64,000 bases of DNA from Hirudinaria manillensis. Lineage: Eukaryota > Annelida > Clitellata > Hirudinida > Hirudinidae. The notes below the pieces were generated by a model that had not been told where the DNA came from, did no database searches, and saw only the letters and a list, made by a program, of their open reading frames with translations. Of the stretch, positions 1 through 63,567 are shown in pieces. The position numbers and the translations under genes were made by a program. Every line of letters starts with the position of its first letter. Positions within the stretch are counted from its first letter, which is position 1. Where the stretch lies: NCBI GenBank assembly GCA_034509925.1, contig CM067526.1, forward strand, positions 10,459,629-10,523,628. The letters are read 5' to 3'.

Positions 1-3000
1 TGAACCTGGAAACATCTATTGGTTCATCTTCCGTTGCTTATGAAACGACGATCAACACTGATCAACCGTCTGAAAGCACTAGTCACTCATTTGAAACCAG
101 CGCTGCGTCAAGCGACCCACCAATCGAGTCGAGTTCAGTCTTATCAACTCTGGACGCAGCCTCGACTACTTCTTTGGGCACGGAACTCACGTCAGGGAGT
201 TCATTGGGTCAGTCGACAATTATGAACCTGGAAACATCTATTGGTTCATCTTCCGTTGCTTATGAAACGACGATCAACACTGATCAACCGTCTGAAAGCA
301 CTAGTCACTCATTTGAAACCAGCGCTGCGTCAAGCGACCCACCAATCGAGTCGAGTTCAGTCTTATCAACTCTGGACGCAGCCTCGACTACTTCTTTGGG
401 CACGGAACTCACGTCAGGGAGTTCATTGGGTCAGTCGACAATTATGAACCTGGAAACATCTATTGGTTCATCTTCCGTTGCTTATGAAACGACGATCAAC
501 ACTGATCAACCGTCTGAAAGCACTAGTCACTCATTTGAAACCAGCGCTGCGTCAAGCGACCCACCAATCGAGTCGAGTTCAGTCTTATCAACTCTGGACG
601 CAGTTTCGACCACTTCTTTGGGCTCTGAACTCACGTCAGGGAGTTCATTGGGTCAGTCGACGATTATGAACCTGGAAACATCAATTGGTTCCTCTTCCGT
701 TGCTTATGAAACGACGATCAACACTGATCAACCGTCTGAAAGCACTAGTCACTCATTTGAAACCAGCGCTGCGTCAAGCGACCCACCAATCGAGTCGAGT
801 TCAGTCTTATCAACTCTGGACGCAGCTTCTACTACTTCTTTGGGCACGGAACTCACGTCAGGGAGTTCATTGGGTCAGTCGACAATTATGAACCTGGAAA
901 CATCTATTGGTTCATCTTCCGTTGCTTATGAAACGACGATCAACACTGATCAACCGTCTGAAAGCACTAGTCACTCATTTGAAACCAGCGCTGCGTCAAG
1001 CGACCCACCAATCGAGTCGAGTTCAGTCTTATCAACTCTGGACGCAGCCTCGACTACTTCTTTGGGCTCTGAACTCACGTCAGGGAGTTCATTGGGTCAG
1101 TCGACAATTATGAACCTGGAAACATCTATTGGTTCATCTTCCGTTGCTTATGAAACGACGATCAACACTGATCAACCGTCTGAAAGCACTAGTCACTCAT
1201 TTGAAACCAGCGCTGCGTCAAGCGACCCACCAATCGAGTCGAGTTCAGTCTTATCAACTCTGGACGCAGTTTCGACCACTTCTTTGGGCTCTGAACTCAC
1301 GTCAGGGAGTTCATTGGGTCAGTCGACGATTATGAACCTGGAAACATCAATTGGTTCCTCTTCCGTTGCTTATGAAACGACGATCAACACTGATCAACCG
1401 TCTGAAAGCACTAGTCACTCATTTGAAACCAGCGCTGCGTCAAGCGACCCACCAATCGAGTCGAGTTCAGTCTTATCAACTCTGAACGCAGCTTCTACTA
1501 CTTCTTTGGGCACGGAACTCACGTCAGGGAGTTCATTGGGTCAGTCGACAATTATGAACCTGGAAACATCTATTGGTTCATCTTCCGTTGCTTATGAAAC
1601 GACGATCAACACTGATCAACCGTCTGAAAGCACTAGTCACTCATTTGAAACCAGCGCTGCGTCAAGCGACCCACCAATCGAGTCGAGTTCAGTCTTATCA
1701 ACTCTGGACGCGGCTTCTACTACTTCTTTGGGCACGGAACTCACGTCAGGGAGTTCATTGGGTCAGTCGACGATTATGAACCTGGAAACATCTATTGGTT
1801 CATCTTCCGTTGCTTATGAAACGACGATCAACACTGATCAACCGTCTGAAAGCACTAGTCACTCATTTGAAACCAGCGCTGCGTCAAGCGACCCACCAAT
1901 CGAGTCGAGTTCAGTCTTATCAACTCTGGACGCAGTTTCGACTACTTCTTTGGGCTCTGAACTCACGTCAGGGAGTTCATTGGGTCAGTCGACGATTATG
2001 AACCTGGAAACATCAATTGGTTCATCTTCCGTTGCTTATGAAACGACGATCAACACTGATCAACCGTCTGAAAGCACTAGTCACTCATTTGAAACCAGCG
2101 GTGCGTCAAGCGACCCACCAATCGAGTCGAGTTCAGTCTTATCAACTCTGGACGCAGCCTCGACTACTTCTTTGGGCTCTGAACTCACGTCAGGGAGTTC
2201 ATTGGGTCAGTCGACAATTATGAACCTGGAAACATCTATTGGTTCATCTTCCGTTGCTTATGAAACGACGATCAACACTGATCAACCGTCTGAAAGCACT
2301 AGTCACTCATTTGAAACCAGCGCTGCGTCAAGCGACCCACCAATCGAGTCGAGTTCAGTCTTATCAACTCTGGACGCGGCTTCTACTACTTCTTTGGGCA
2401 CGGAACTCACGTCAGGGAGTTCATTGGGTCAGTCGACAATTATGAACCTGGAAACATCTATTGGTTCATCTTCCGTTGCTTATGAAACGACGATCAACAC
2501 TGATCAACCGTCTGAAAGCACTAGTCACTCATTTGAAACCAGCGCTGCGTCAAGCGACCCACCAATCGAGTCGAGTTCAGTCTTATCAACTCTGGACGCA
2601 GCTTCTACTACTTCTTTGGGCACGGAACTCACGTCAGGGAGTTCATTGGGTCAGTCGACAATTATGAACCTGGAAACATCTATTGGTTCATCTTCCGTTG
2701 CTTATGAAACGACGATCAACACTGATCAACCGTCTGAAAGCACTAGTCACTCATTTGAAACCAGCGCTGCGTCAAGCGACCCACCAATCGAGTCGAGTTC
2801 AGTCTTATCAACTCTGGACGCAGCTTCTACTACTTCTTTGGGCACGGAACTCACGTCAGGGAGTTCATTGGGTCAGTCGACAATTATGAACCTGGAAACA
2901 TCTATTGGTTCATCTTCCGTTGCTTATGAAACGACGATCAACACTGATCAACCGTCTGAAAGCACTAGTCACTCATTTGAAACCAGCGCTGCGTCAAGCG

Positions 3001-6000
3001 ACCCACCAATCGAGTCGAGTTCAGTCTTATCAACTCTGGACGCAGCTTCGACTACTTCTTTGGGCACGGAACTCACGTCAGGGAGTTCATTGGGTCAGTC
3101 GACAATTATGAACCTGGAAACATCTATTGGTTCATCTTCCGTTGCTTATGAAACGACGATCAACACTGATCAACCGTCTGAAAGCACTAGTCACTCATTT
3201 GAAACCAGCGCTGCGTCAAGCGACCCACCAATCGAGTCGAGTTCAGTCTTATCAACTCTGGACGCGGCTTCTACTACTTCTTTGGGCACGGAACTCACGT
3301 CAGGGAGTTCATTGGGTCAGTCGACAATTATGAACCTGGAAACATCTATTGGTTCATCTTCCGTTGCTTATGAAACGACGATCAACACTGATCAACCGTC
3401 TGAAAGCACTAGTCACTCATTTGAAACCAGCGCTGCGTCAAGCGACCCACCAATCGAGTCGAGTTCAGTCTTATCAACTCTGGACGCAGCTTCTACTACT
3501 TCTTTGGGCACGGAACTCACGTCAGGGAGTTCATTGGGTCAGTCGACAATTATGAACCTGGAAACATCTATTGGTTCATCTTCCGTTGCTTATGAAACGA
3601 CGATCAACACTGATCAACCGTCTGAAAGCACTAGTCACTCATTTGAAACCAGCGCTGCGTCAAGCGACCCACCAATCGAGTCGAGTTCAGTCTTATCAAC
3701 TCTGGACGCGGCTTCTACTACTTCTTTGGGCACGGAACTCACGTCAGGGAGTTCATTGGGTCAGTCGACAATTATGAACCTGGAAACATCTATTGGTTCA
3801 TCTTCCGTTGCTTATGAAACGACGATCAACACTGATCAACCGTCTGAAAGCACTAGTCACTCATTTGAAACCAGCGCTGCGTCAAGCGAACCACCAATCG
3901 AGTCGAGTTCAGTCTTATCAACTCTGGACGCGGCTTCTACTACTTCTTTGGGCACGGAACTCACGTCAGGGAGTTCATTGGGTCAGTCGACAATTATGAA
4001 CCTGGAAACATCTATTGGTTCATCTTCCGTTGCTTATGAAACGACGATCAACACTGATCAACCGTCTGAAAGCACTAGTCACTCATTTGAAACCAGCGCT
4101 GCGTCAAGCGACCCACCAATCGAGTCGAGTTCAGTCTTATCAACTCTGGACGCAGCTTCGACTACTTCTTTGGGCTCTGAACTCACGTCAGGGAGTTCAT
4201 TGGGTCAGTCGACGATTATGAACCTGGAAACATCTATTGGTTCATCTTCCGTTGCTTATGAAACGACGATCAACACTGATCAACCGTCTGAAAGCACTAG
4301 TCACTCATTTGAAACCAGCGCTGCGTCAAGCGACCCACCAATCGAGTCGAGTTCAGTCTTATCAACTCTGGACGCAGCTTCTACTACTTCTTTGGGCACG
4401 GAACTCACGTCAGGGAGTTCATTGGGTCAGTCGACAATTATGAACCTGGAAACATCTATTGGTTCATCTTCCGTTGCTTATGAAACGACGATCAACACTG
4501 ATCAACCGTCTGAAAGCACTAGTCACTCATTTGAAACCAGCGCTGCGTCAAGCGAACCACCAATCGAGTCGAGTTCAGTCTTATCAACTCTGGACGCGGC
4601 TTCTACTACTTCTTTGGGCACGGAACTCACGTCAGGGAGTTCATTGGGTCAGTCGACAATTATGAACCTGGAAACATCTATTGGTTCATCTTCCGTTGCT
4701 TATGAAACGACGATCAACACTGATCAACCGTCTGAAAGCACTAGTCACTCATTTGAAACCAGCGCTGCGTCAAGCGACCCACCAATCGAGTCGAGTTCAG
4801 TCTTATCAACTCTGGACGCAGCTTCGACTACTTCTTTGGGCTCTGAACTCACGTCAGGGAGTTCATTGGGTCAGTCGACGATAATGAACCTGGAAACATC
4901 AATTGGTTCATCTTCCGTTGCTTATGAAACGACGATCAACACTGATCAACCGTCTGAAAGCACTAGTCACTCATTTGAAACCAGCGCTGCGTCAAGCGAC
5001 CCACCAATCGAGTCGAGTTCAGTCTTATCAACTCTGGACGCAGCTTCTACTACTTCTTTGGGGACGGAACTCACGTCAGGGAGTTCATTGGGTCAGTCGA
5101 CAATTATGAACCTGGAAACATCTATTGGTTCATCTTCCGTTGCTTATGAAACGACGATCAACACTGATCAACCGTCTGAAAGCACTAGTCACTCATTTGA
5201 AACCAGCTCTGCGTCAAGCGACCCACCAATCGAGTCGAGTTCAGTCTTATCAACTCTGGACGCAGCTTCGACTACTTCTTTGGGCACGGAACTCACGTCA
5301 GGGAGTTCATTGGGTCAGTCGACAATTATGAACCTGGAAACATCTATTGGTTCATCTTCCGTTGCTTATGAAACGACGATCAACACTGATCAACCGTCTG
5401 AAAGCACTAGTCACTCATTTGAAACCAGCGCTGCGTCAAGCGACCCACCAATCGAGTCGAGTTCAGTCTTATCAACTCTGGACGCAGCTTTCGACTACTT
5501 CTTTGGGCTCTGAACTCACGTCAGGGAGTTCATTGGGTCAGTCGACAATTATGAACCTGGAAACATCAATTGGTTCATCTTCCGTTGCTTATGAAACGAC
5601 GATCAACACTGATCAACCGTCTGAAAGCACTAGTCACTCATTTGAAACCAGCGCTGCGTCAAGCGACCCACCAATCGAGTCGAGTTCAGTCTTATCAACT
5701 CTGGACGCAGCTTCTACTACTTCTTTGGGCACGGAACTCACGTCAGGGAGTTCATTGGGTCAGTCGACGATTATGAACCTGGAAACATCAATTGGTTCAT
5801 CTTCCGTTGCTTATGAAACGACGATCAACACTGATCAACCGTCTGAAAGCACTAGTCACTCATTTGAAACCAGCGCTGCGTCAAGCGACCCACCAATCGA
5901 GTCGAGTTCAGTCTTATCAACTCTGGACGCAGCTTCTACTACTTCTTTGGGCACGGAACTCACGTCAGGGAGTTCATTGGGTCAGTCGACAATTATGAAC

Positions 6001-9000
6001 CTGGAAACATCTATTGGTTCATCTTCCGTTGCTTATGAAACGACGATCAACACTGATCAACCGTCTGAAAGCACTAGTCACTCATTTGAAACCAGCGCTG
6101 CGTCAAGCGACCCACCAATCGAGTCGAGTTCAGTCTTATCAACTCTGGACGCAGCTTCGACTACTTCTTTGGGCACGGAACTCACGTCAGGGAGTTCATT
6201 GGGTCAGTCGACAATTATGAACCTGGAAACATCTATTGGTTCATCTTCCGTTGCTTATGAAACGACGATCAACACTGATCAACCGTCTGAAAGCACTAGT
6301 CACTCATTTGAAACCAGCGCTGCGTCAAGCGAACCACCAATCGAGTCGAGTTCAGTCTTATCAACTCTGGACGCGGCTTCTACTACTTCTTTGGGCACGG
6401 AACTTACGTCAGGGAGTTCAATGGGTCAGTCGACAATTATGAACCTGGAAACATCTATTGGTTCATCTTCCGTTGCTTATGAAACGACGATCAACACTGA
6501 TCAACCGTCTGAAAGCACTAGTCACTCATTTGAAACCAGCGCTGCGTCAAGCGACCCACCAATCGAGTCGAGTTCAGTCTTATCAACTCTGGACGCAGCT
6601 TCGACTACTTCTTTGGGCTCTGAACTCACGTCAGGGAGTTCATTGGGTCAGTCGACGATTATGAACCTGGAAACATCAATTGGTTCATCTTCCGTTGCTT
6701 ATGAAACGACGATCAACACTGATCAACCGTCTGAAAGCACTAGTCACTCATTTGAAACCAGCGCTGCGTCAAGCGACCCACCAATCGAGTCGAGTTCAGT
6801 CTTATCAACTCTGGACGCAGCTTCTACTACTTCTTTGGGGACGGAACTCACGTCAGGGAGTTCATTGGGTCAGTCGACAATTATGAACCTGGAAACATCA
6901 ATTGGTTCATCTTCCGTTGCTTATGAAACGACGATCAACACTGATCAACCGTCTGAAAGCACTAGTCACTCATTTGAAACCAGCGCTGCGTCAAGCGACC
7001 CACCAATCGAGTCGAGTTCAGTCTTATCAACTCTGGACGCAGCTTCTACTACTTCTTTGGGCACGGAACTCACGTCAGGGAGTTCATTGGGTCAGTCGAC
7101 GATTATGAACCTGGAAACATCTATTGGTTCATCTTCCGTTGCTTATGAAACGACGATCAACACTGATCAACCGTCTGAAAGCACTAGTCACTCATTTGAA
7201 ACCAGCGCTGCGTCAAGCGACCCACCAATCGAGTCGAGTTCAGTCTTATCAACTCTGGACGCAGCTTCTACTACTTCTTTGGGCACGGAACTCACGTCAG
7301 GGAGTTCATTGGGTCAGTCGACAATTATGAACCTGGAAACATCTATTGGTTCATCTTCCGTTGCTTATGAAACGACGATCAACACTGATCAACCGTCTGA
7401 AAGCACTAGTCACTCATTTGAAACCAGCGCTGCGTCAAGCGACCCACCAATCGAGTCGAGTTCAGTCTTATCAACTCTGGACGCAGCTTCTACTACTTCT
7501 TTGGGCACGGAACTCACGTCAGGGAGTTCATTGGGTCAGTCGACGATTATGAACCTGGAAACATCTATTGGTTCATCTTCCGTTGCTTATGAAACGACGA
7601 TCAACACTGATCAACCGTCTGAAAGCACTAGTCACTCATTTGAAACCAGCGCTGCGTCAAGCGACCCACCAATCGAGTCGAGTTCAGTCTTATCAACTCT
7701 GGACGCAGCTTCTACTACTTCTTTGGGCACGGAACTCACGTCAGGGAGTTCATTGGGTCAGTCGACAATTATGAACCTGGAAACATCTATTGGTTCATCT
7801 TCCGTTGCTTATGAAACGACGATCAACACTGATCAACCGTCTGAAAGCACTAGTCACTCATTTGAAACCAGCGCTGCGTCAAGCGACCCACCAATCGAGT
7901 CGAGTTCAGTCTTATCAACTCTGGACGCAGCTTCGACTACTTCTTTGGGCTCTGAACTCACGTCAGGGAGTTCATTGGGTCAGTCGACGATTATGAACCT
8001 GGAAACATCTATTGGTTCATCTTCCGTTGCTTATGAAACGACGATCAACACTGATCAACCGTCTGAAAGCACTAGTCACTCATTTGAAACCAGCGCTGCG
8101 TCAAGCGACCCACCAATCGAGTCGAGTTCAGTCTTATCAACTCTGGACGCAGCTTCTACTACTTCTTTGGGCACGGAACTCACGTCAGGGAGTTCATTGG
8201 GTCAGTCGACGATTATGAACCTGGAAACATCTATTGGTTCATCTTCCGTTGCTTATGAAACGACGATCAACACTGATCAACCGTCTGAAAGCACTAGTCA
8301 CTCATTTGAAACCAGCGCTGCGTCAAGCGACCCACCAATCGAGTCGAGTTCAGTCTTATCAACTCTGGACGCAGCTTCTACTACTTCTTTGGGCACGGAA
8401 CTCACGTCAGGGAGTTCATTGGGTCAGTCGACAATTATGAACCTGGAAACATCTATTGGTTCATCTTCCGTTGCTTATGAAACGACGATCAACACTGATC
8501 AACCGTCTGAAAGCACTAGTCACTCATTTGAAACCAGCGCTGCGTCAAGCGACCCACCAATCGAGTCGAGTTCAGTCTTATCAACTCTGGACGCAGCTTC
8601 TACTACTTCTTTGGGCACGGAACTCACGTCAGGGAGTTCATTGGGTCAGTCGACAATTATGAACCTGGAAACATCTATTGGTTCATCTTCCGTTGCTTAT
8701 GAAACGACGATCAACACTGATCAACCGTCTGAAAGCACTAGTCACTCATTTGAAACCAGCGCTGCGTCAAGCGACCCACCAATCGAGTCGAGTTCAGTCT
8801 TATCAACTCTGGACGCAGCTTCTACTACTTCTTTGGGCACGGAACTCACGTCAGGGAGTTCATTGGGTCAGTCGACAATTATGAACCTGGAAACATCTAT
8901 TGGTTCATCTTCCGTTGCTTATGAAACGACGATCAACACTGATCAACCGTCTGAAAGCACTAGTCACTCATTTGAAACCAGCGCTGCGTCAAGCGACCCA

Positions 9001-12000
9001 CCAATCGAGTCGAGTTCAGTCTTATCAACTCTGGACGCAGCTTCGACTACTTCTTTGGGCTCTGAACTCACGTCAGGGAGTTCATTGGGTCAGTCGACGA
9101 TTATGAACCTGGAAACATCAATTGGTTCATCTTCCGTTGCTTATGAAACGACGATCAACACTGATCAACCGTCTGAAAGCACTAGTCACTCATTTGAAAC
9201 CAGCGCTGCGTCAAGCGACCCACCAATCGAGTCGAGTTCAGTCTTATCAACTCTGGACGCAGCTTCTACTACTTCTTTGGGGACGGAACTCACGTCAGGG
9301 AGTTCTTTGGGTCAGTCGACAATTATGAACCTGGAAACATCTATTGGTTCATCTTCCGTTGCTTATGAAACGACGATCAACACTGATCAACCGTCTGAAA
9401 GCACTAGTCACTCATTTGAAACCAGCGCTGCGTCAAGCGACCCACCAATCGAGTCGAGTTCAGTCTTATCAACTCTGGACGCAGTTTCGACTACTTCTTT
9501 GGGCTCTGAACTAACGTCAGGGAGTTCATTGGGTCAGTCGACGATTATGAACCTGGAAACATCAATTGGTTCATCTTCCGTTGCTTATGAAACGACGATC
9601 AACACTGATCAACCGTCTGAAAGCACTAGTCACTCATTTGAAACCAGCGCTGCGTCAAGCGACCCACCAATCGAGTCGAGTTCAGTCTTATCAACTCTGG
9701 ACGCAGCTTCTACTACTTCTTTGGGCACGGAACTCACGTCAGGGAGTTCATTGGGTCAGTCGACGATTATGAACCTGGAAACATCAATTGGTTCATCTTC
9801 CGTTGCTTATGAAACGACGATCAACACTGATCAACCGTCTGAAAGCACTAGTCACTCATTTGAAACCAGCGCTGCGTCAAGCGACCCACCAATCGAGTCG
9901 AGTTCAGTCTTATCAACTCTGGACGCAGCTTCTACTACTTCTTTGGGCACGGAACTCACGTCAGGGAGTTCATTGGGTCAGTCGACAATTATGAACCTGG
10001 AAACATCAATTGGTTCATCTTCCGTCGCTTATGAAACGACGATCAACACTGATCAACCGTCTGAAAGCACTAGTCACTCATTTGAAACCAGCGCTGCGTC
10101 AAGCGACCCACCAATCGAGTCGAGTTCAGTCTTATCAACTCTGGACGCAGCTTCTACTACTTCTTTGGGAACGGAACTCGCGTCAGGGATTTCATTGGGT
10201 CAGTCGACAATTATGAACCTGGAAACATCTATTGGTTCATCTTCCGTTGCTTATGAAACGACGATCAACACTGATCAACCGTCTGAAAGCACTAGTAACT
10301 CATTTGAAACCAGCGCTGCGTCAAGCGACCCACCAATCGAGTCGAGTTCAGTCTTATCAACTCTGGACGCAGCTTCTACTACTTCTTTGGGCACGGAACT
10401 CACGTCAGGGAGTTCATTGGGTCAGTCGACAATTATGAACCTGGAAACATCAATTGGTTCATCTTCCGTTGCTTATGAAACGACGATCAACACTGATCAA
10501 CCGTCTGAAAGCACTAGTCACTCATTTGAAACCAGCGCTGCGTCAAGCGACCCACCAATCGAGTCGAGTTCAGTCTTATCAACTCTGGACGCAGCTTCTA
10601 CTACTTCTTTGGGCACGGAACTCACGTCAGGGAGTTCATTGGGTCAGTCGACAATTATGAACCTGGAAACATCTATTGGTTCATCTTCCGTTGCTTATGA
10701 AACGACGATCAACACTGATCAACCGTCTGAAAGCACTAGTCACTCATTTGAAACCAGCGCTGCGTCAAGCGACCCACCAATCGAGTCGAGTTCAGTCTTA
10801 TCAACTCTGGACGCAGCCTCGTTTACTTCTTTGGGCACGGAACTCACGTCAGGAAGTTCATTGGGTCAGTCGAAAATTATGAACCTGGAAACATCTATTG
10901 GTTCATCTTCCGTTGCTTATGAAACGACGATCAACACTGATCAACCGTCTGAAAGCACTAGTCACTCATTTGAAACCAGCGCTGCGTCAAGCGACCCACC
11001 AATCGAGTCGAGTTCAGTCTTATCAACTCTGGACGCAGCTTCTACTACTTCTTTGGGCACGGAACTCACGTCAGGGAGTTCATTGGGTCAGTCGACAATT
11101 ATGAACCTGGAAACATCAATTGATTCATATTCCGTTGCTTATGAAACGACGATCAACACTGATCAACCGTCTGAAAGCACTAGTCACTCATTTGAAACCA
11201 GCGCTGCGTCAAGCGACCCACCAATCGAGTCGAGTTCAGTCTTATCAACTCTGGACGCAGCTTCGACTACTTGTTTGGGCTCTGAACTCACGTCAGGGAG
11301 TTCATTGGGTCAGTCGACGATTATGAACCTGGAAACATCAATTGGTTCATCTTCCGTTGCTTATGAAACGACGATCAACACTGATCAACCGTCTGAAAGC
11401 ACTAGTCACTCATTTGAAACCAGCGCTGCGTTAAGCGACCCACCAATCGAGTCGAGTTCAGTCTTATCAACTCTGGACGCAGCTTCTACTACTTCTTTGG
11501 GCACGGAACTCACGTCAGGGAGTTCATTGGGTCAGTCGACAATTATGAACCTGGAAACATCAATTGATTCATATTCCGTTGCTTATGAAACGACGATCAA
11601 CACTGATCAACCGTCTGAAAGCACTAGTCACTCATTTGAAACCAGCGCTGCGTCAAGCGACCCACCAATCGAGTCGAGTTCAGTCTTATCAACTCTGGAC
11701 GCAGCTTCGACTACTTGTTTGGGCTCTGAACTCACGTCAGGGAGTTCATTGGGTCAGTCGACGATTATGAACCTGGAAACATCAATTGGTTCATCTTCCG
11801 TTGCTTATGAAACGACGATCAACACTGATCAACCGTCTGAAAGCACTAGTCACTCATTTGAAACCAGCGCTGCGTTAAGCGACCCACCAATCGAGTCGAG
11901 TTCAGTCTTATCAACTCTGGACGCAGCTTCTACTACTTCTTTGGGCACGGAACTCACGTCAGGGAGTTCATTGGGTCAGTCGACAATTATGAACCTGGAA

Positions 12001-15000
12001 ACATCTATTGGTTCATCTTCCGTTGCTTATGAAACGACGATCAACACTGATCAACCGTCTGAAAGCACTAGTCACTCATTTGAAACCAGCGCTGCGTCAA
12101 GCGACCCACCAATCGAGTCGAGTTCAGTCTTATCAACTCTGGACGCAGCCTCGTTTACTTCTTTGGGCACGGAACTCACGTCAGGAAGTTCATTGGGTCA
12201 GTCGAAAATTATGAACCTGGAAACATCTATTGGTTCATCTTCCGTTGCTTATGAAACGACGATCAACACTGATCAACCGTCTGAAAGCACTAGTCACTCA
12301 TTTGAAACCAGCGCTGCGTCAAGCGACACACCAATCGAGTCGAGTTCAGTCTTATCAACTCTGGACGCAGCTTCTACTACTTCTTTGGGCACGGAACTCA
12401 CGTCAGGGAGTTCATTGGGTCAGTCGACAATTATGAACCTGGAAACATCAATTGATTCATATTCCGTTGCTTATGAAACGACGATCAACACTGATCAACC
12501 GTCTGAAAGCACTAGTCACTCATTTGAAACCAGCGCTGCGTCAAGCGACCCACCAATCGAGTCGAGTTCAGTCTTATCAACTCTGGACGCAGCTTCGACT
12601 ACTTCTTTGGGCTCTGAACTCACGTCAGGGAGTTCATTGGGTCAGTCGACGATTATGAACCTGGAAACATCAATTGGTTCATCTTCCGTTGCTTATGAAA
12701 CGACGATCAACACTGATCAACCGTCTGAAAGCACTAGTCACTCATTTGAAACCAGCGCTGCGTTAAGCGACCCACCAATCGAGTCGAGTTCAGTCTTATC
12801 AACTCTGGACGCAGCTTCTACTACTTCTTTGGGCACGGAACTCACGTCAGGGAGTTCATTGGGTCAGTCGACAATTATGAACCTGGAAACATCTATTGGT
12901 TCATCTTCCGTTGCTTATGAAACGACGATCAACACTGATCAACCGTCTGAAAGCACTAGTCACTCAGTTGAAACCAGCGCTGCGTCAAGCGACCCACCAA
13001 TCGAGTCGAGTTCAGTCTTATCAACTCTGGACGCAGCTTCTACTACTTCTTTGGGCACGGAACTCACGTCAGGGATTTCATTGGGTCAGTCGACGATTAT
13101 GAACCTGGAAACATCAATTGGTTCATCTTCCGTTGCTTATGAAACGACGATCAACACTGATCAACCGTCTGAAAGCACTAGTCACTCATTTGAAACCAGC
13201 GCTGCGTCAAGCGACCCACCAATCGAGTCGAGTTCAGTCTTATCAACTCTGGACGCAGCTTCTACTACTTCTTTGGGCACGGAACTCACGTCAGGGAGTT
13301 CATTGGGTCAGTCGACAATTATGAACCTGGAAACATCAATTGATTCATATTCCGTTGCTTATGAAACGACGATCAACACTGATCAACCGTCTGAAAGCAC
13401 TAGTCACTCATTTGAAACCAGCGCTGCGTCAAGCGACCCACCAATCGAGTCGAGTTCAGTCTTATCAACTCTGGACGCAGCTTCGACTACTTCTTTGGGC
13501 TCTGAACTCACGTCAGGGAGTTCATTGGGTCAGTCGACGATTATGAACCTGGAAACATCAATTGGTTCATCTTCCGTTGCTTATGAAACGACGATCAACA
13601 CTGATCAACCGTCTGAAAGCACTAGTCACTCATTTGAAACCAGCGCTGCGTCAAGCGACCCACCAATCGAGTCGAGTTCAGTCTTATCAACTCTGGACGC
13701 AGCTTCTACTACTTCTTTGGGCACGGAACTCACGTCAGGGAGTTCATTGGGTCAGTCGACAATTATGAACCAGGAAACATCTATTGGTTCATCTTCCGTT
13801 GCTTATGAAACGACGATCAACACTGATCAACCGTCTGAAAGCACTAGTCACTCATTTGAAACCAGCGCTGCGTCAAGCGACCCACCAATCGAGTCGAGTT
13901 CAGTCTTATCAACTCTGGACGCAGCTTCTACTACTTCTTTGGGCACGGAACTCACGTCAGGGAGTTCATTGGGTCAGTCGACAATTATGAACCTGGAAAC
14001 ATCAATTGATTCATATTCCGTTGCTTATGAAACGACGATCAACACTGATCAACCGTCTGAAAGCACTAGTCACTCATTTGAAACCAGCGCTGCGTCAAGC
14101 GACCCACCAATCGAGTCGAGTTCAGTCTTATCAACTCTGGACGCAGCTTCTACTACTTCTTTGGGCACGGAACTCACGTCAGGGAGTTCATTGGGTCAGT
14201 CGACGATTATGAACCTGGAAACATCAATTGGTTCATCTTCCGTTGCTTATGAAACGACGATCAACACTGATCAACCGTCTGAAAGCACTAGTCACTCATT
14301 TGAAACCAGCGCTGCGTCAAGCGACCCACCAATCGAGTCGAGTTCAGTCTTATCAACTCTGGACGCAGCTTCTACTACTTCTTTGGGCACGGAACTCACG
14401 TCAGGGAGTTCATTGGGTCAGTCGACAATTATGAACCTGGAAACATCAATTGATTCATATTCCGTTGCTTATGAAACGACGATCAACACTGATCAACCGT
14501 CTGAAAGCACTAGTCACTCATTTGAAACCAGCGCTGCGTTAAGCGACCCACCAATCGAGTCGAGTTCAGTCTTATCAACTCTGGACGCAGCTTCTACTAC
14601 TTCTTTGGGCACGGAACTCACGTCAGGGAGTTCATTGGGTCAGTCGACAATTATGAACCTGGAAACATCTATTGGTTCATCTTCCGTTGCTTATGAAACG
14701 ACGATCAACACTGATCAACCGTCTGAAAGCACTAGTCACTCAGTTGAAACCAGCGCTGCGTCAAGCGACCCACCAATCGAGTCGAGTTCAGTCTTATCAA
14801 CTCTGGACGCAGCTTCTACTACTTCTTTGGGCACGGAACTCACGTCAGGGAGTTCATTGGGTCAGTCGACGATTATGAACCTGGAAACATCAATTGGTTC
14901 ATCTTCCGTTGCTTATGAAACGACGATCAACACTGATCAACCGTCTGAAAGCACTAGTCACTCATTTGAAACCAGCGCTGCGTCAAGCGACCCACCAATC

Positions 15001-17142
15001 GAGTCGAGTTCAGTCTTATCAACTCTGGACGCAGCTTCTACTACTTCTTTGGGCACGGAACTCACGTCAGGGAGTTCATTGGGTCAGTCGACAATTATGA
15101 ACCTGGAAACATCAATTGATTCATATTCCGTTGCTTATGAAACGACGATCAACACTGATCAACCGTCTGAAAGCACTAGTCACTCATTTGAAACCAGCGC
15201 TGCGTCAAGCGACCCACCAATCGAGTCGAGTTCAGTCTTATCAACTCTGGACGCAGCTTCGACTACTTCTTTGGGCTCTGAACTCACGTCAGGGAGTTCA
15301 TTGGGTCAGTCGACGATTATGAACCTGGAAACATCAATTGGTTCATCTTCCGTTGCTTATGAAACGACGATCAACACTGATCAACCGTCTGAAAGCACTA
15401 GTCACTCATTTGAAACCAGCGCTGCGTCAAGCGACCCACCAATCGAGTCGAGTTCAGTCTTATCAACTCTGGACGCAGCTTCTACTACTTCTTTGGGCAC
15501 GGAACTCACGTCAGGGAGTTCATTGGGTCAGTCGACAATTATGAACCAGGAAACATCTATTGGTTCATCTTCCGTTGCTTATGAAACGACGATCAACACT
15601 GATCAACCGTCTGAAAGCACTAGTCACTCATTTGAAACCAGCGCTGCGTCAAGCGACCCACCAATCGAGTCGAGTTCAGTCTTATCAACTCTGGACGCAG
15701 CTTCTACTACTTCTTTGGGCACGGAACTCACGTCAGGGAGTTCATTGGGTCAGTCGACAATTATGAACCTGGAAACATCAATTGATTCATATTCCGTTGC
15801 TTATGAAACGACGATCAACACTGATCAACCGTCTGAAAGCACTAGTCACTCATTTGAAACCAGCGCTGCGTCAAGCGACCCACCAATCGAGTCGAGTTCA
15901 GTCTTATCAACTCTGGACGCAGCTTCGACTACTTCTTTGGGCTCTGAACTCACGTCAGGGAGTTCATTGGGTCAGTCGACAATTATGAACCTGGAAACAT
16001 CAATTGGTTCATCTTCCGTTGCTTATGAAACGACGATCAACACTGATCAACCGTCTGAAAGCACTAGTCACTCATTTGAAACCAGCGCTGCGTCAAGCGA
16101 CCCACCAATCGAGTCGAGTTCAGTCTTATCAACTCTGGACGCAGCTTCTACTACTTCTTTGGGCACGGAACTCACGTCAGGGAGTTCATTGGGTCAGTCG
16201 ACGATTATGAACCTGGAAACATCAATTGGTTCATCTTCCGTTGCTTATGAAACGACGATCAACACTGATCAACCGTCTGAAAGCACTAGTCACTCATTTG
16301 AAACCAGCGCTGCGTCAAGCGACCCACCAATCGAGTCGAGTTCAGTCTTATCAACTCTGGACGCAGCTTCTACTACTTCTTTGGGCACGGAACTCACGTC
16401 AGGGAGTTCATTGGGTCAGTCGACAATTATGAACCTGGAAACATCTATTGGTTCATCTTCCGTTGCTTATGAAACGACGATCAACACTGATCAACCGTCT
16501 GAAAGCACTAGTCACTCATTTGAAACCAGCGCTGCGTCAAGCGACCCACCAATCGAGTCGAGTTCAGTCTTATCAACTCTGGACGCAGCTTCTACTACTT
16601 CTTTGGGCACGGAACTCACGTCAGGGAGTTCATTGGGTCAGTCGACAATTATGAACCTGGAAACATCTATTGGTTCATCTTCCGTTGCTTATGAAACGAC
16701 GATCAACACTGATCAAACGTCTGAAAGCACTAGTCACTCATTTGAAACCAGCGCTGCGTCAAGCGACCCACCAATCGAGTCGAGTTCAGTCTTATCATCT
16801 CTGGACGCAGCTTCTACTACTTCTTTGGGAACGGAACTCGCGTCAGGGATTTCATTGGGTCAGTCGACAATTATGAACCTGGAAACATCTATTGGTTCAT
16901 CTTCCGTTGCTTATGAAACGACGATCAACACTGATCAACCGTCTGAAAGCACTAGTCACTCATTTGAAACCAGCGCTGCGTCAAGCGACCCACCAATCGA
17001 GTCGAGTTCAGTCTTATCAACTCTGGACGCAGCTTCTACTACTTCTTTGGGAACGGAACTCGCGTCAGGGAGTTCATTGGGTCAGTCGACAATTATGAAC
17101 CTGGAAACATCAATTGGTTCATCTTCCGTTGCTTATGAAACG
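1..17142 (+). repeat. 222-bp coding minisatellite, about 77 copies
   Basis: The same 222-bp unit repeats without any length change from 1 to 5490 and from 5492 to 17142, so 77 full units plus fragments are present. The only indel in 17.1 kb is one extra T in the run 5489-5491. Units differ by a handful of recurring substitutions, for example Gly-Thr-Glu or Gly-Ser-Glu, Asp-Ala-Ala or Asp-Ala-Val, and Gly-Ser-Ser or Asp-Ser-Tyr. These recur at 2-, 3-, 6- and 8-unit spacings, which points to repeated block duplication. Synonymous sites are as uniform as replacement sites, a sign of recent homogenisation. Confidence 0.97.
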
Positions 17143-17359
17143 TTCTTGGGAACATCAAATTCTTTTAGAACTGGATCAACTTTTGTTGCTCCTATGACGT
17201 CATCAATTCCCCCTTTAATTAATGGTCCTTGTTCTTCCTATTTACTTTCAACGTCTGATGACATGTATTCTTTTTCACCGTGTCCTTCCTCCATTTTGCT
17301 TTCGAAGAATCCTTTATCAAGTACTTCCTATCCCGTATCAAATTATGCTACTTTAAATG
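1..17359 (+). CDS. Mucin-like Ser/Thr-rich tandem-repeat exon (5' part of a giant membrane mucin; partial)
   Basis: The window opens inside the coding repeat, so the true start, signal peptide and first exons lie outside. Frame 3 is open from base 3 to 5490; a 1-bp insertion then moves the reading into frame 1, which stays open to 17359. The 74-residue unit has 21 Ser and 12 Thr (about 45%), Pro and acidic residues, and no Cys in most copies, as expected for an extended O-glycosylated mucin domain. After the last partial unit (ends 17142) about 70 non-repeated residues follow, still Ser-rich and including two Cys. I place the donor at 17359/17360 because codon phase 1 matches the acceptor at 17773; reading on instead gives a stop at 17413-17415. 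Over 5600 residues are visible. The glycoprotein role is inferred from composition; the repeat resembles no family I know. Confidence 0.75.
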
Positions 17360-17772
17360 GTGAGATTCAAATGCGATTGAACACTAAACTGTCACAAAGT
17401 TTGGCTAACACATGATCACAGCTTAAAATTAAGTTAGTCAATAAAATTTGCTTGATTTTTGCATTTCTTATTCATTCTATTGTTTTTTCCCTCATTATTA
17501 TTATTCGTTTTGAATTTTTATTTTCTAGAATTTAAACTTATTTTGTTGGTTGTAAAGTATTTTGTAAATGCATTAGCGACGTTAATTATCGTTAATTTAT
17601 TAGTTTATTGTATAATAACAGAATTGGTGTATGTTTGCGTTAGTGATTTAAGATTGGCATGGATAAGTTTTTTTTATATTACCTTTAAACATTTTTGCCT
17701 GCTATTTTCAATTATTCAATAAATACTTAGTTGCTATTTAAGTTATGTATTTACGATTATTTTCATGTATAG

Positions 17773-56149: not shown

Positions 56150-57837
56150 AGACGAATTTAGAAGCAACGAGACAACTCCGCCCCAAATTATTTACCAGTG
56201 CTCACCTATTTATGATGCGCTTCACCGTTTTCAACAGGTTATTTAGTTAAACAATCGGCCGTTTACATCCATTTCCTCAATTATTACAAAGCTTCAAAGT
56301 ACCAGTTATTTTATCATTTATTATGTCCCGTACAAAAAAACGTTCGCTAGCAAGTTTCCATACTTAGCCGCACTCCCGCGTCATCACCTTTACGCACCCC
56401 AAATCTGATCAAATGGCTAAAGTGCAACACTCCAGCAGTGAAAGCAACCTTTCTTGAAAAAGCATTCCTTTGCAGCTCTAGTAAACTATCCCAAGTGAGA
56501 TTCCACTGCCTCAAATATGCATCTTTAAGCAAAACAAAACAATGCAAATGCAAAAATATATTGTCTTACAACCAAAATATCGAAAAGATACAAAATCCAA
56601 CTGAAGTAACCAAAATAAACCCCTCGATGGCAATTAACTAAGTTGCCATCCATTGGGTTTAGAACCATCACACTAAATGCAGCCTAGTAACTTAAGAAGC
56701 AGCAACAGCAAAAATGAACTTCAACTGGCATGATCGTTTGAAATCATGGAGAGGGATATGTTCAACAAAACTAATATTCTGATAAGCTATTACACAAGCC
56801 GGTATTCTTCATAAAATATGAGATAAGGTGATTAAGAAAATAGCAAAATGGAAAAGATGATTATTGAAAAAAGACCAACAAATCAATAAACAATTTATTA
56901 CCCTCCATGAATTTCTATTACTGCAAACAGAGGAATGGTTGTGTCAATCTAACAAAACATCTCAAATACAAAGACTTGCATGAAAATATAGCATCATAGA
57001 TGACAGTTCTTAGCAAAGTGAAGAGGCAGAGATTTAGTTTGCCCATGGAAGCACACCTCCATCAGGCAGAATCAGAATGATTCCATCGTCATAAGAGTGA
57101 CATTGTCATTCAAAAACACCAAATGAATCTCAGCTTCTTGAATGCAGGCAGCTACCACGAGGAGTCACAAAATGATGAGCAATAGTCTCGAGACTAATGA
57201 TATTAATTGGGCATACTGGGTCACATAGATTATGTTTAGGTTGCAAATGATTTTAAATGATTCAAGAGCCAACTGAGCCTATTTCATCTAAATCAAATTC
57301 CTATTTCACGAATCAACTGAACTGAAAAGATTATTCATGATTCATAGGTCTCAAACTGAACCCACCAAATAATTTATAGGTCAGTGTCACATCAATGATA
57401 GGTAACACACTAGTATTGGATGTCTAATGATTATCAAACATTAGGTCCACACAAAAGAACAGTCACGCATTTCTTTCCAATCAGATCGTCATCCATTGAG
57501 CTCATGCATAGTAGGACTGATAGTGGGCATACCAAACCTCACCTGAATGCTTGAGAGACCTGTATTTGATGAAATATAATTTCTTTGTGAACCATATAAA
57601 ATCATTTCTATAGATCAACAAAATTGACAAAATCCCTTTGAGTCACAAACGTCAAGGGCAAGTATTTAAGTCAAGATTTTGTAAAACATGATTCATTTGC
57701 ACCAGAGGACTAGATAAACAATGGACCCACATAAGTTCTTGACATCCTATGCATATGTATGAGGCACCCAAAAGATTGGCCAAATGTAAATACAAAATCA
57801 ATTAAAGTTTGCTTCAAGCCACAAAAAATCATTTTAA
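56150..57837. other. Intergenic interval, membrane protein / desaturase
   Basis: No exon supported. A minus-strand AATAAA at 56899-56894 could end a long desaturase 3' untranslated region of about 940 nt. The rest is AT-rich without repeats that stand out. Confidence 0.55.
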
Positions 57838-60800
57838 TTACTTCCAGCTAAAAAAAATCTCATATATAAATAAAAACCATTCAATATTTTCATACTTGAC
57901 AATATCCATGAAAGCCTCAGACAGAGTCTTGCACTTGTAAGGAATGCCATGCTTCTTGCACAAGGACTTAACGTAGGGAGCAATCTTATACAAGTTATGA
58001 CGTGGCATGGTAGGGAAGCAGCTGTATAAGCAATCGATTTAATAAAGTTAACACAATTAGTTTAAATGTTTATTCATAATTATTATTATATGTGTGGTGA
58101 TTTCTTTTCAATACCAACATCCTACCAGCAGTAATCAAGGTCAAGTAAAATAAAAATTAAATATAATTCATGAAATATGAGTCATTAGAAATGATTTCAT
58201 TACAAAAACCAACAGAAATTTAAATCTTTGCTCCAACAGAATTGCAAAACATAAAAACGTTCAAGGATTTAAACAATTGTACCGGTTAAAAAATTACATA
58301 ACCGCCACACAAAATACTAAATATCATTTGAGACTCACTGATGCTCTATCTGGAAGTTGAGATGGCCAGTGAACCAATCATTGAAAAGTGATTTTTCAAC
58401 ATCACATGTCGCATACAACTACAGAAGGAAACACTCAATTAATTAATTAAAGTTTTTAAAAAATTAATTTTGAGATCAAAGACTTCAGTTTCTTAAAGTC
58501 CTCTGAATATCTTTAATGAGGAACCTAGCCAATATGAAAGAAAGTCCCAGATGAAAGAAAATGCTTTTTTGAGAAGAAAAATAAAAATAAAGGATTTTAA
58601 AATGAAAGTTTGAAAAGTATTTATGTTTTTATTTTTTGTCTAAGATCAAGGACTTTAACTTCTCCACCTCTCCTTTGCCACTTTGACATGACAAGTCAAA
58701 GTGGCATAGATCTAAAGGCTGTCATAGATCTAAAGTTCTATGTTTAAGTAGTTGTAAGAGGGACCACCATACAGAAAAACAGCAATCATTCAAAGTAAAG
58801 TCTTGCATTTTTGTATTTATCATGTTAATGTGCTGTCCTAACCTGAAGTGCCAACCAGGGCCTCTCCTTGTCATCCTCAATATCCATGGGAATGTGGTTA
58901 GACTGACTCACCCATACAAACCAGTGACTTTCCAGACACCTTGGATTAAAAAACAAATATATTTCTTAAATTAATGTGAATTACATCTGTATAATGTAAT
59001 AATTTCTCCCGTATGTCAACAGGTTTGCAATAAAATCATATTCCACATATCCGGTCACAAAAGCAGAATATTTTAGTGTTCACTAATAATAGTGTTCTTG
59101 TCAGGCCATAACAACATCATAACACTCTTATTTTAAATAACTTGATGGCTGATCTTAGATTTTTAAAACTTTCTCCAAGTTTGGCACTTGCATTGAGCTT
59201 TAGATAAAATTCAGGATGCTACTTATGGATTTAAAGTATTCTTGACCATCAAAAAGATGCATAAATAAACATTTCAAAGCTTGCATTGTTTCATAAAAGG
59301 GCTAATTCTTTAACCAAAATAACATATTTTTTCAGCTTGACTGTTCAAACGAGGGTGGTACCTTAAATTAAAAACTTCATTTACCTGATCATGAAGTAAT
59401 ATCCTATGGTGCCCCAAAATCCAAAAAAAGGGGTATATAATGCCAAGAGTTTGATGTAGAACAATGTCATGAAAAACACATCCTGGAATCGATAGGATAT
59501 ATTTTATAACATCAATAAACCCTGACAATTATCCATCAAGACATCAATTATTACCTGCCAATTCTTCCTCGAAATAGGATGTTTGAAGATCATAATTTGA
59601 AAGAAAACAGGGAATAGTAGTGGTGGTCCAACTGTTAATGAAAGTTTTTTGTTTGTAATTCATACATAAACACTAATTACATTAAAAAAAAATACATAAA
59701 GACAAACAAGTCTCTTATATTATAAATTAAATACCCAAATACATTTAAATTTAATATATTAAATTAAATAAATTAAATACCCAAATACAATCATTAAATT
59801 CCATTATTAAGCACTCGAGGGAACTCAGTTATTTTTAAAATAATCTTGATAAATGAGCAGCCCAGCAAAGGACCTCCAAACAATTCCTCAAGATTATCTC
59901 TCTTTTCAACAGGATCCCACTTTCTGACTTTTCTGTTTAACATGTTGACAAAAAAAAACAATTTGAATTTGTCTAACTTATAAAAAAGTATCTGTGCTGC
60001 CAATTGTATGGCATGGACATCTTCTTTTCTCTGGCAACCTGAAGAAACAAAAACAATTAACTGATGATAAAACAGTAAGTAAATTTATTATTAATTTAAG
60101 TCCAATGTCCTATCCTAACAATTTCCTCCTTGAAAATATGCAAGGCATTTCATCTGAATTTCACAACTCTAAAACCCCCTTTGGCATCCATAATAACCCA
60201 TAAGATGCACAATGTTGTGGTATGGCAGATTATCATATCATTAAAAACAACGACACCTACATGAAGTTTGCTCCCTTCAGCTATTTTGAAATCCATTACC
60301 CCATCTCACTTTGGTACTTTAACCTCAATGTGTATTAACTCAATTAGCAGGTTTGAATGATTTGCCAGGCTCATGTTTTCAGTTTTGTTTGTTAGCTCTC
60401 ATTATCATTTTACATGGTCTGCTGACAATAAGAAAACTTTACGGCCCACTACTCTGCTTTGTCACCAGATAAATAAATAAAATAAAATTGATAAGTAAAT
60501 CCTGATAATAATTAAATAATATATTGATGTGAAACCTTCTATTTTATTGCTTGTAGCATTGGACTAATCCCATGTGGGTGCAAACGAATAAAACTCTGAA
60601 CCGAATTGGAGACACCAAATGACTAATAAAAGCCAAGGCCAACCAAATAATCGAATAAAATCCCAAGCATCACACAGACACAACAACATGCATTCAAATT
60701 AAAGTCACCTTATGTCTGTTCATTCATTCATTCCTCCATTCAGGTTCTCATGGCAACGCAAAATGTCGAGTGTTAGTACGTGTCCTCAAACATGTCCACA

Positions 60801-63567
60801 CAACACCAAAGTTTGTTGAAGTACTAGAAATACAAACAGTCCGAAGGTATGTGCACTCACTCTTTTAGGAATTTCCTCTCCTAGAACAAACACTGCATCC
60901 AATCTAACATCTGGATCCTTGTTAATCTGAAAGCAATCCACAGCAAAGAGTTTATAAACGGATCCTATCGTCCAACGCGATCATTCATAAGCGTGAGAGT
61001 ACAAACCACGTTTGGTTTTGAATGATGCTGATTGTGAAGATGTTGCCACCACGAGGTAGATGCTCCCTGTAGAATAGGAAATATCATCAGTTTGCTTCTT
61101 TAACACACAACTGATAACTATTTTCAAGGAATTTAAGCTCATATCACGAGCAAAAAAGATCAAATAATAATTAATGAATTCAGAAAACTAAGAAAGTTGT
61201 TTCGATGGAAATTGAATGTCAAACTGCAGAAAAATAATTATGTTCAGAAATATTTTTATCTTACTTTGATAATGTTCATGACAAAAGTATGGAATAATTA
61301 TGTTCAGAAATATTTTTATCTTACTTTGATAATGTTCATGACAAAAGTATGGAATAATTATGTTCAGAAATATTTTTATCTTACTTTGATAATGTTCATG
61401 ACAAAAGTATGGAATAATTATGTTCAGAAATATTTTTATCTTACTTTGATAATGTTCATGACAAAAGTATGGAATAATTATGTTCAGAAATATTTTTATC
61501 TTACTTTGATAATGTTCATGACAAAAGTATGGAATAATTATGTTCAGAAATATTTTTATCTTACTTTGATAATGTTCATGACAAAAGTATGGAATAATTA
61601 TGTTCAGAAATATTTTTATCTTACTTTGATAATGTTCATGACAAAAGTATGGAATAATTATGTTCAGAAATATTTTTATCTTACTTTGATAATGTTCATG
61701 ACAAAAGTATGGAATAATTATGTTCAGAAATATTTTTATCTTACTTTGATAATGTTCATGACAAAAGTATGGAATAATTATGTTCAGAAATATTTTTATC
61801 TTACTTTGATAATGTTCATGACAAAAGTATGGAATAATTATGTTCAGAAATATTTTTATCTTACTTTGATAATGTTCATGACAAAAGTATGGAATAATTA
61901 TGTTCAGAAATATTTTTATCTTACTTTGATAATGTTCATGACAAAAGTATGGAATAATTATGTTCAGAAATATTTTTATCTTACTTTGATAATGTTCATG
62001 ACAAAAGTATGGAATAATTATGTTCAGAAATATTTTTATCTTACTTTGATAATGTTCATGACAAAAGTATGGAATATCTTGTTCAGTTTAGAACTTTTAA
62101 ACACTGACAGATGACCAAAATCGTGCTGACTCCAACCAGCTTCAGCCTAACCATGCAATCAGTTAAATAATTAATAATTAATTAAGTCAAATGATTATTT
62201 GGCAGTTATATTGATCGAACGACGTAAATATTCACGACGGAAGACAAATTAAACATTCATGACGACACTGCAATGAAAGTATAATCGCTGCAGTTCAACC
62301 TGCATGTCACAACAAGTACTCCTCGAATGAGCATGACTCAGCAATTAATATACAATTAACATAAAAACAATTATGCAGAACAAATTTTAACAATACATGT
62401 GGAATATTATCAACAAACAAGTCCAATCAGCAGCCTACCTGAACAATGGTGTAAAAGAGAACAGATAAGCAAGTAGGAATCCAGCCAGTTCCATAATAAT
62501 AGAGCACTAAGTAGGCCAGGACTTCAAAAAAGATGAGGTGTCCAATGATGAAAGTGTAAAAACACTTGCTCGGAATGAATAAACCCTGATTATCATAAAA
62601 ATGATAAACTTTATTTCAAACTTGAGTTCAGTTTGTCATCTTGCCAACAACAGTTGTTGCTTTGTTGTGTGAATGTCGCCATCAAAATTATAATCATTAT
62701 AAATTGATTTCAACCAATTAATCTGCTTTGCCTCAGTCTCAACAATATTTTCCAAACACGCAAACCATTTTATCAGCCGTTTTCCTGAGTTCTTCAAAAT
62801 CTTTTTTTATATCCTCATCTTTGATTTTCTCTGGAGGACTTGGTCCAACTGCACCCATATAGAGAGGTGCCATATACTTTGAAACCTTCAGTTTGTCCTT
62901 ATGAAACTCTCTGAAAGCTTCCTAATTAAAATGAGGCAATGTTTGTGTTATACATAAAATGCTGACAGACATAGTTAATGCAAAAAATGATGAAAAAAAT
63001 TACGTGAGTAGTTTCCTAGTGACTTATTGATTAAATGTATACATGTGGACATGACATGAGATCAAATAAATTTGTTCAACATCACAATATTGAGGTTAAC
63101 ATAATAATATATCCATTCTTAAAACATTCACAAATTCTAATTTGAAGTTAGAACAATGTAATTTAATGAAATTAGAAAAGTATAATTTTCTCTATAGTGA
63201 AAGTGATACATAGAATTTATTAAGCAATTTCAGTTCTTTAAGAAACTAGATTAATTAATTTTTTTTATCAAACTACATACAAACTACAACATTTGAAATA
63301 ATTTAAGTTTAAACCATGGGTCCAAACTTTCCTATCTTTCTCATCTCTCATCAAACTGTCAAAAACACCATATTGAAATTTGATCACACTCACAGTTGCA
63401 TCTTGTCCAGCATAATGGCCCATGATAGCAGACCCACCAGGATGCTTTTTACTCCAATTTGTCACATTGTAGACTTGATTTTCAATGACAACCCATCTGT
63501 CTGTCCTTGTATTGTGCTTTTTAACTTCCTCCCATGTAATTTCTTGAGCGTTTTCCTCCTTGCACAT
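57838..63567 (-). CDS. Cytochrome-b5 front-end fatty acid desaturase (FADS1/2-like)
   Basis: ER-membrane enzyme that adds a double bond between an existing one and the carboxyl end of a long-chain acyl group. Exons in transcript order: 63567-63394, 62921-62766, 62585-62439, 62146-62045, 61066-61007, 60926-60861, 60038-59978, 59631-59555, 59482-59385, 58939-58843, 58418-58339, 58021-57838; phases join to 433 residues (human FADS2 444). The N-terminal cytochrome b5 domain has heme-ligand motif HPGG (42-45) and HYAG (51-54). Three His boxes are complete: HDFGH (167-171), HNQHH (204-208) and QIEHH (369-373, split by the last intron). Hydrophobic segments lie between. Regioselectivity (delta-5, -6 or other) cannot be read. 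The last 18 residues after DIVK do not match the family; a donor-like GTATGA is present there, so the C-terminus is less certain. Exon 4 ends inside a 60-bp tandem repeat. Confidence 0.95.
61233..62076. repeat. 60-bp minisatellite of about 14 perfect copies spanning an exon-intron junction
   Basis: A 60-bp unit is repeated about 14.07 times with no difference that I can see. In desaturase sense each unit contains the last 27 or more nucleotides of exon 4 (HTFVMNIIK) followed by the donor GTAAGA. The first copy (62045-62076) is the genuine exon end; the other 13 lie in intron 4. The GT of each donor is at 62044-62043, 61984-61983 and so on to 61264-61263. Each donor is followed at once by an in-frame TAA. 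Confidence 0.97.

Follow-up and report, generated by a model that had tools for sequence, protein, structure and literature searches.

Fourteen identical tandem 5' splice sites in a desaturase gene of Hirudinaria manillensis: a probable, mostly tolerated exon-intron boundary 'mirage'

Tandem repeats that run across exon-intron boundaries were described in amphioxus as 'mirages', with the repeats of Adh3 as the earlier case, and the passages that report them record both length instability and somatic instability (PMC3087553). On the evidence given there, the Adh3 data and RT-PCR of globin transcripts suggest that such repeats do not interfere with regular splicing; a further account, which states that no aberrant mRNAs arise from the Adh and TnC mirages, extends this to PGBD5 by inference (PMC3902484). 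In the open literature that was searched, the term was encountered only for the amphioxus cases, apart from two unrelated uses of the word, and the array described below would extend mirages beyond what is, in that literature, their sole carrier.

In the human CBS gene, a 31-bp VNTR, c.1444_1467+7(16_21), is listed with 16-21 copies (PMC2630376), and lies, as a polymorphic element, at the boundary of exon 13 and intron 13 (PMC5188458, PMC1395315). By its name, the unit comprises 24 exon and 7 intron bases and so includes the donor, as does the unit described here; the review passage concerned terms the VNTR sequence non-coding (PMC5188458). A second CBS variant, 844ins68, likewise duplicates a splice boundary in tandem and is reported with normal CBS mRNA, but it has two copies only and lies at the intron 7/exon 8 junction (PMC2630376); that position, and a title in the reference list of the same source, make it a 3' splice site, where the passage itself says 'donor'. 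The MIR137 VNTR was considered as a further donor-bearing repeat and set aside, as the alternative donors that its source describes lie in pre-miR sequence, outside the VNTR.

The array was found in a window of 64,000 nucleotides of the Hirudinaria manillensis assembly (GCA_034509925.1, contig CM067526.1, positions 10,459,629 to 10,523,628). Its features, in window coordinates, are these (a slash marks the exon-intron junction):

57502..63567, minus strand: front-end fatty acid desaturase gene, 13 coding exons, 433 aa (gene model and domains)
62045..62146, minus strand: exon 4, 102 nt, with HDFGH (gene model)
61233..62076, minus strand: 60-bp minisatellite, 14.07 perfect copies, the unit being 32 nt of exon 4 end and 28 nt of intron 4 start
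62043..62044, minus strand: donor 1 (GT), AAA/GTAAGA, genuine end of exon 4 as judged from the gene model and the codon boundary of the C6 paralogue
61263..61984, minus strand: donors 2-14, at 60-nt spacing, first intron bases 61984 to 61264
61067..62044, minus strand: intron 4, 978 nt from donor 1 and 198 nt from donor 14
61007..61066, minus strand: exon 5, 20 protein letters (gene model)
61224..61226, minus strand: acceptor candidate TTTTTCTGCAG, directly 3' of the array and outside the gene model (upstream pyrimidines)

An earlier note on this DNA had placed here a perfect 60-bp repeat with 14 identical 5' splice sites 60 nt apart, and both statements hold to the base, in the TRF output (100% matches, score 1688) and in a direct count of the units: the array spans 844 bp (14.07 x 60 bp, as assembled) with no mismatch, AAA/GTAAGA is present in all 14 units, and AAAGTAAGA occurs once per copy (14/14, minus strand), the first intron base falling at 62044 in copy 1, at 61984 in the next and at 61264 in the last. 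An 844-bp array without a mismatch is not a product of chance; in eight sampled 10-kb stretches, there were no arrays with a period of at least 8 and at least 10 copies. Searched against the whole 148-Mb assembly, the 60-bp unit gave 14 matches, every one inside the array, and by that search the locus is present in a single copy. The identity between copies can be read as very recent expansion or, equally, as an older array that has been homogenised. The repeat had also been said to contain no acceptor AG, which was borne out: YAG is absent from the array, and AG occurs in the unit solely as AAG. A search of the window against Rfam gave no match. Birth of the array between short direct repeats (TATT at both edges, CTGAACA outside) was tried as an explanation and rejected, with 950 of 5000 shuffled flanks scoring as well.

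Like the amphioxus mirages (Adh3, BflGb6, BflGb9, TnC and PGBD5), this array consists of tandem, minisatellite-like repeats whose unit spans the exon-intron boundary, and splice signals are found in 14 of its 14 copies; the same donor recurs in every copy, whereas in the accounts cited many, not all, of the amphioxus repeats carry splice signals. The BflGb6 mirage is described there with 6 and 3 copies of 81-100% identity at a 3' splice site, in contrast to 14 perfect copies at a donor, and mirage splicing is reported to be regular. The CBS VNTR differs in that its 31-bp units carry substitutions between copies, as against identical copies of 60 bp, and in that polymorphism and reduced activity have been reported for it, as against a single assembly for the desaturase array.

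The 13-exon model yields an uninterrupted protein of 433 aa, in which an N-terminal cytochrome b5 domain (Pfam Cyt-b5, 87.1 bits) and a desaturase domain (FA_desaturase, 120.5 bits) were both found; a search of PDB sequences with this protein matched 51 sequences, in the N-terminal b5 part only. By its domain order the gene is taken to be a 'front-end' desaturase, and the HDFGH of exon 4 to be the first His box of that family. A second cytochrome b5/desaturase-like gene, on contig C6, matches residues 2-237 and 313-415 of the window protein, with nothing matched between them at 1e-3, and it aligns to residues 161-193 and 194-237 of that protein in two pieces that break at the codon boundary 193/194. 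The C6 intron at that boundary is about 1.07 kb long, and the repeat finder picked up nothing in it beyond short AAT- and AAC-type repeats towards its far end.

It had been claimed that copy 1 forms the normal end of exon 4, and this stands, in that the frame closes exactly with exon 5 and the C6 paralogue has its intron at the same codon; together with a usable U1 pairing, these observations identify donor 1 as the true end of exon 4. The pairing in question, that of the exon 4 donor among the gene's 12 donors, amounts to -4.5 kcal/mol and is the fifth weakest of them (range -2.4 to -10.7); because it lies within the gene's own range, the exon 4 donor is not a dead site. Of 42 U1 genes found, two were read, both with the usual 5' end. 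The proposal that later donors lead to an immediate stop was likewise upheld: use of any of donors 2-14 adds 60 to 780 nt beginning GTAAGATAA, which reads K-V-R-stop and ends translation at the third added codon. The earlier note is accurate in what it observed and correct on the coding consequences, but it goes too far on novelty, since the claim that such a reiterated donor was undescribed is wrong in view of the published accounts of amphioxus mirages (PMC3087553, PMC3902484) and of the human CBS VNTR (PMC2630376, PMC5188458).

We consider the array to be, probably, a boundary-spanning mirage that is mostly tolerated, with exon definition choosing donor 1. A 60-bp segment across the exon 4/intron 4 junction would have been duplicated in tandem and then expanded, with its first copy serving as the working exon end; the 102-nt exon 4 would be defined as a unit between its acceptor and donor 1, and the other 13 donors would be removed along with intron 4. 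Donors 2-14 would be unproductive because each adds GTAAGATAA and its early stop, and the array would be mostly tolerated rather than selected. RNA structure hiding the later donors was examined as an additional element and rejected, as the array RNA is not unusually structured, with a z of 0.67 and 151 of 200 shuffled sequences folding as well or better.

Choice among identical 5' splice sites has usually been studied in artificial minigenes, and the desaturase array offers a natural case. When two identical strong donors competed in human minigenes whose flanking introns were 365 nt long, splicing went exclusively to the upstream one; when both donors were weakened, minigenes with the larger exon skipped it, while those with the smaller exon still preferred the upstream donor (PMC9225289). 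Those constructs share with the desaturase gene identical donors facing one acceptor, but have two artificial donors as opposed to fourteen natural ones, and because the desaturase donor is not strong, the exon skipping that they display counts against the reading in which donor 1 is used. For human events of near equal strength, the same source associates short introns with the downstream donor and long introns with the upstream one, and in human DOK7, with 11 nt between the donors, a preference is described for the intron-proximal one (PMC5585400). Since intron 4 is 978 nt long from donor 1 and 198 nt from donor 14, donor 1 is the choice of exon definition and donor 14 that of intron definition; use of donor 14 would produce an exon of 882 nt. 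Intron 3 of the same gene measures 292 nt. Among the YAG sites of intron 4, the one with the most pyrimidines upstream is the modelled acceptor at 61067 (11/15), and the candidate at 61224 comes second (10/15); splicing of the latter to exon 4 would give a stop after 11 codons. The short intron left by donor 14, the preference described for DOK7, the modest strength of the donor and the presence of an acceptor candidate just past the array all tell against a tolerated mirage. We infer that splicing uses donor 1 and that the array is tolerated; some leakage to donor 14 is possible.

The genome was searched for three GTAAGT or three GTAAGA motifs spaced 31-60 nt apart, and at least 25 distinct other places stood among the matches listed (11 and 14), of which 11 had their flanks read; the 14 left unread include a GTAA microsatellite at C1:8159558. 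Four of the 11 arrays (C2:5527217; C3:11899018; C3:12377546, the LLGL-like one; and C4:12336976) begin where a homology-supported coding exon on their own strand ends, in genes for a phosphoglycerate mutase (PGAM), a dynein heavy chain, an LLGL-like protein and a protein with TSP1-type repeats. Six flanks (C1:6029494, C5:10143167, C7:195270, C2:8244979, C4:11428142 and C10:5715373) revealed no exon by eye within the few hundred to 1500 nt read upstream. At the remaining place, C1:1483634, in a RhoGEF-domain gene (48.1 bits), the array adjoins a donor and the motif match is antisense. The exon there ends GAG/GTTGGT, with a 20-bp array immediately behind it; read on the sense strand, the repeat is ACTTACCTG (8 copies) or ACTTACCTC (5 copies). 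Both resemble the U1 5' end, and such repeats could pair in cis with donors. Five genes of one genome thus carry tandem donor arrays, the desaturase with 14 perfectly identical sites, and in having several cases within one genome the sister arrays and the amphioxus mirages are alike.

The PGAM exon (...ALNIPTG) has a PDB match at 7.1e-27 and scores 18.7 bits against Pfam His_Phos_1, below the cut-off of 21.7. The dynein exon has as its top PDB chain 9fqr_I3 (2.7e-11; 4730 aa, listed as CFAP57), followed by dynein axonemal heavy chain 5 at 3.3e-9. The LLGL-like exon matches LLGL1 at 6.9e-10, in an alignment that stops three residues short of the exon end, and no Pfam family exceeded its cut-off for it; we presume a likeness of this gene to tomosyn. 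The TSP1-repeat gene scores 24.9 bits with Pfam TSP_1 (cut-off 21.6). In comparisons made with no control run, the bases before the donor are alike between unit and exon end at 10/13 positions in dynein and 10/14 in the LLGL-like gene, while in PGAM (2/16) and TSP1 (2/13) the unit starts at the donor. The searched GTAAGT of the dynein array sits in the intron part of its unit; the repeated donor of that array is AAG/GTAGCA, after a first AAG/GTGGGA.

An in-frame stop follows right after the first donor in all five genes, ending 8 nt (TSP1), 9 nt (desaturase), 12 nt (LLGL-like), 20 nt (dynein) and 23 nt (PGAM) beyond it, so that only the first donor yields protein; since in-frame stops are expected in AT-rich introns, these early stops are no sign of design. 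Copies differ from each other in all four sister arrays, and U1 pairing is stronger at the first donor than at later ones in PGAM (-8.2 vs -5.1), in dynein (-8.8 vs -6.2) and slightly in TSP1 (-5.5 vs -5.1), so that the sister arrays lend weaker support and those three are no clean tests of donor choice. First and later donors of the LLGL-like array tie at -8.0 each, and the clean tests are the desaturase and LLGL-like arrays; these natural arrays bear on the trade-off between exon and intron definition with intron length. The PGAM exon was found at one genomic place at E <= 0.001, with a 50-aa query that could miss a diverged copy, and for this reason its first donor presumably works in vivo.

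No enrichment of minisatellites at donors is claimed, since GTAAGT is common (about 26,000 genome-wide, extrapolated from 14 in 80 kb), many of its occurrences may be true donors, and the search itself selects them. The triple motifs were not in excess of a backwards control (60 and 44 in the control vs 43 and 20); the backwards control of another run, with 11,970 and 12,805 matches that are presumably microsatellites, was unusable as a yardstick. A GTGAGT pattern was discarded as an array probe, as its matches were nearly all GTGA microsatellite.

Against the tolerated mirage, it is possible, though on balance unlikely, that some transcripts use later donors, chiefly donor 14, and pass to NMD, so that array length would set desaturase output. 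By analogy, such copy-number tuning would already have a published counterpart in the CBS VNTR, for which a review reports that additional repeats lower CBS activity (PMC5188458; table entry PMC1395315), and an 882-nt exon with a 198-nt intron falls in the size range where intron definition is described as competing (PMC9225289); the amphioxus mirages, as reported without disturbance of splicing (PMC3087553, PMC3902484), speak against it. Rather improbable is a two-state switch, in which exon definition would lead to donor 1 and intron definition to donor 14, with the twelve between hardly used and copy number setting the balance; if it were true, the desaturase, the LLGL-like gene with its tied donors, and PGAM, dynein and TSP1 with their stronger first donors would make up a natural series from which to learn how donors are chosen.

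That the intron-proximal donor dominates, leaving the gene largely non-productive and its function to the C6 paralogue, would agree with the classical rule, credited in PMC9225289 to Reed and Maniatis, that proximity decides between competing donors, and with the existence of that second gene; it is quite improbable, given that 13 of 13 exons are intact in the window gene, which argues for continued use, and that PGAM, of similar layout, stands at one place only, although in PGAM the later donors are weaker than the first. An assembly artefact, with a much smaller real copy number or with copies unlike one another, is very improbable: identity is perfect across 844 bp and the large array at window positions 1-17142 shifts its reading frame near 5.4 kb, maybe through an assembly error in the repeat, but the eight sampled contigs of 8.3-14.3 Mb suggest long reads, the flanks of the desaturase array are unique gene sequence, and the four sister arrays vary from copy to copy, so that the assembly has not simply repeated one unit.

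Several further observations were made in the window and the assembly. The array at window positions 1-17142 consists of a 222-bp unit (77.2 copies, 98% matches) and encodes a Ser/Thr-rich repeat in long open frames; the open frame passes from one ORF (3-5510) to another (5332-17412), so that near 5.4 kb either the frame changes or the assembly is in error. The COX1-bearing mitochondrial contig C23 translates sensibly, as judged by eye at conserved sites, with table 13, the code of ascidian mitochondria, in which AGA and AGG are glycine. At C9:3026446-3027786, on a large contig, a COX1 match was found whose score and nine TGA codons equal those of C23, and which is either a copy lately transferred to the nucleus or mitochondrial sequence drawn in during assembly. 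At C8:561564-573288, U1 snRNA genes stand in a row at a spacing of about 600 bp, many of them with identical scores.
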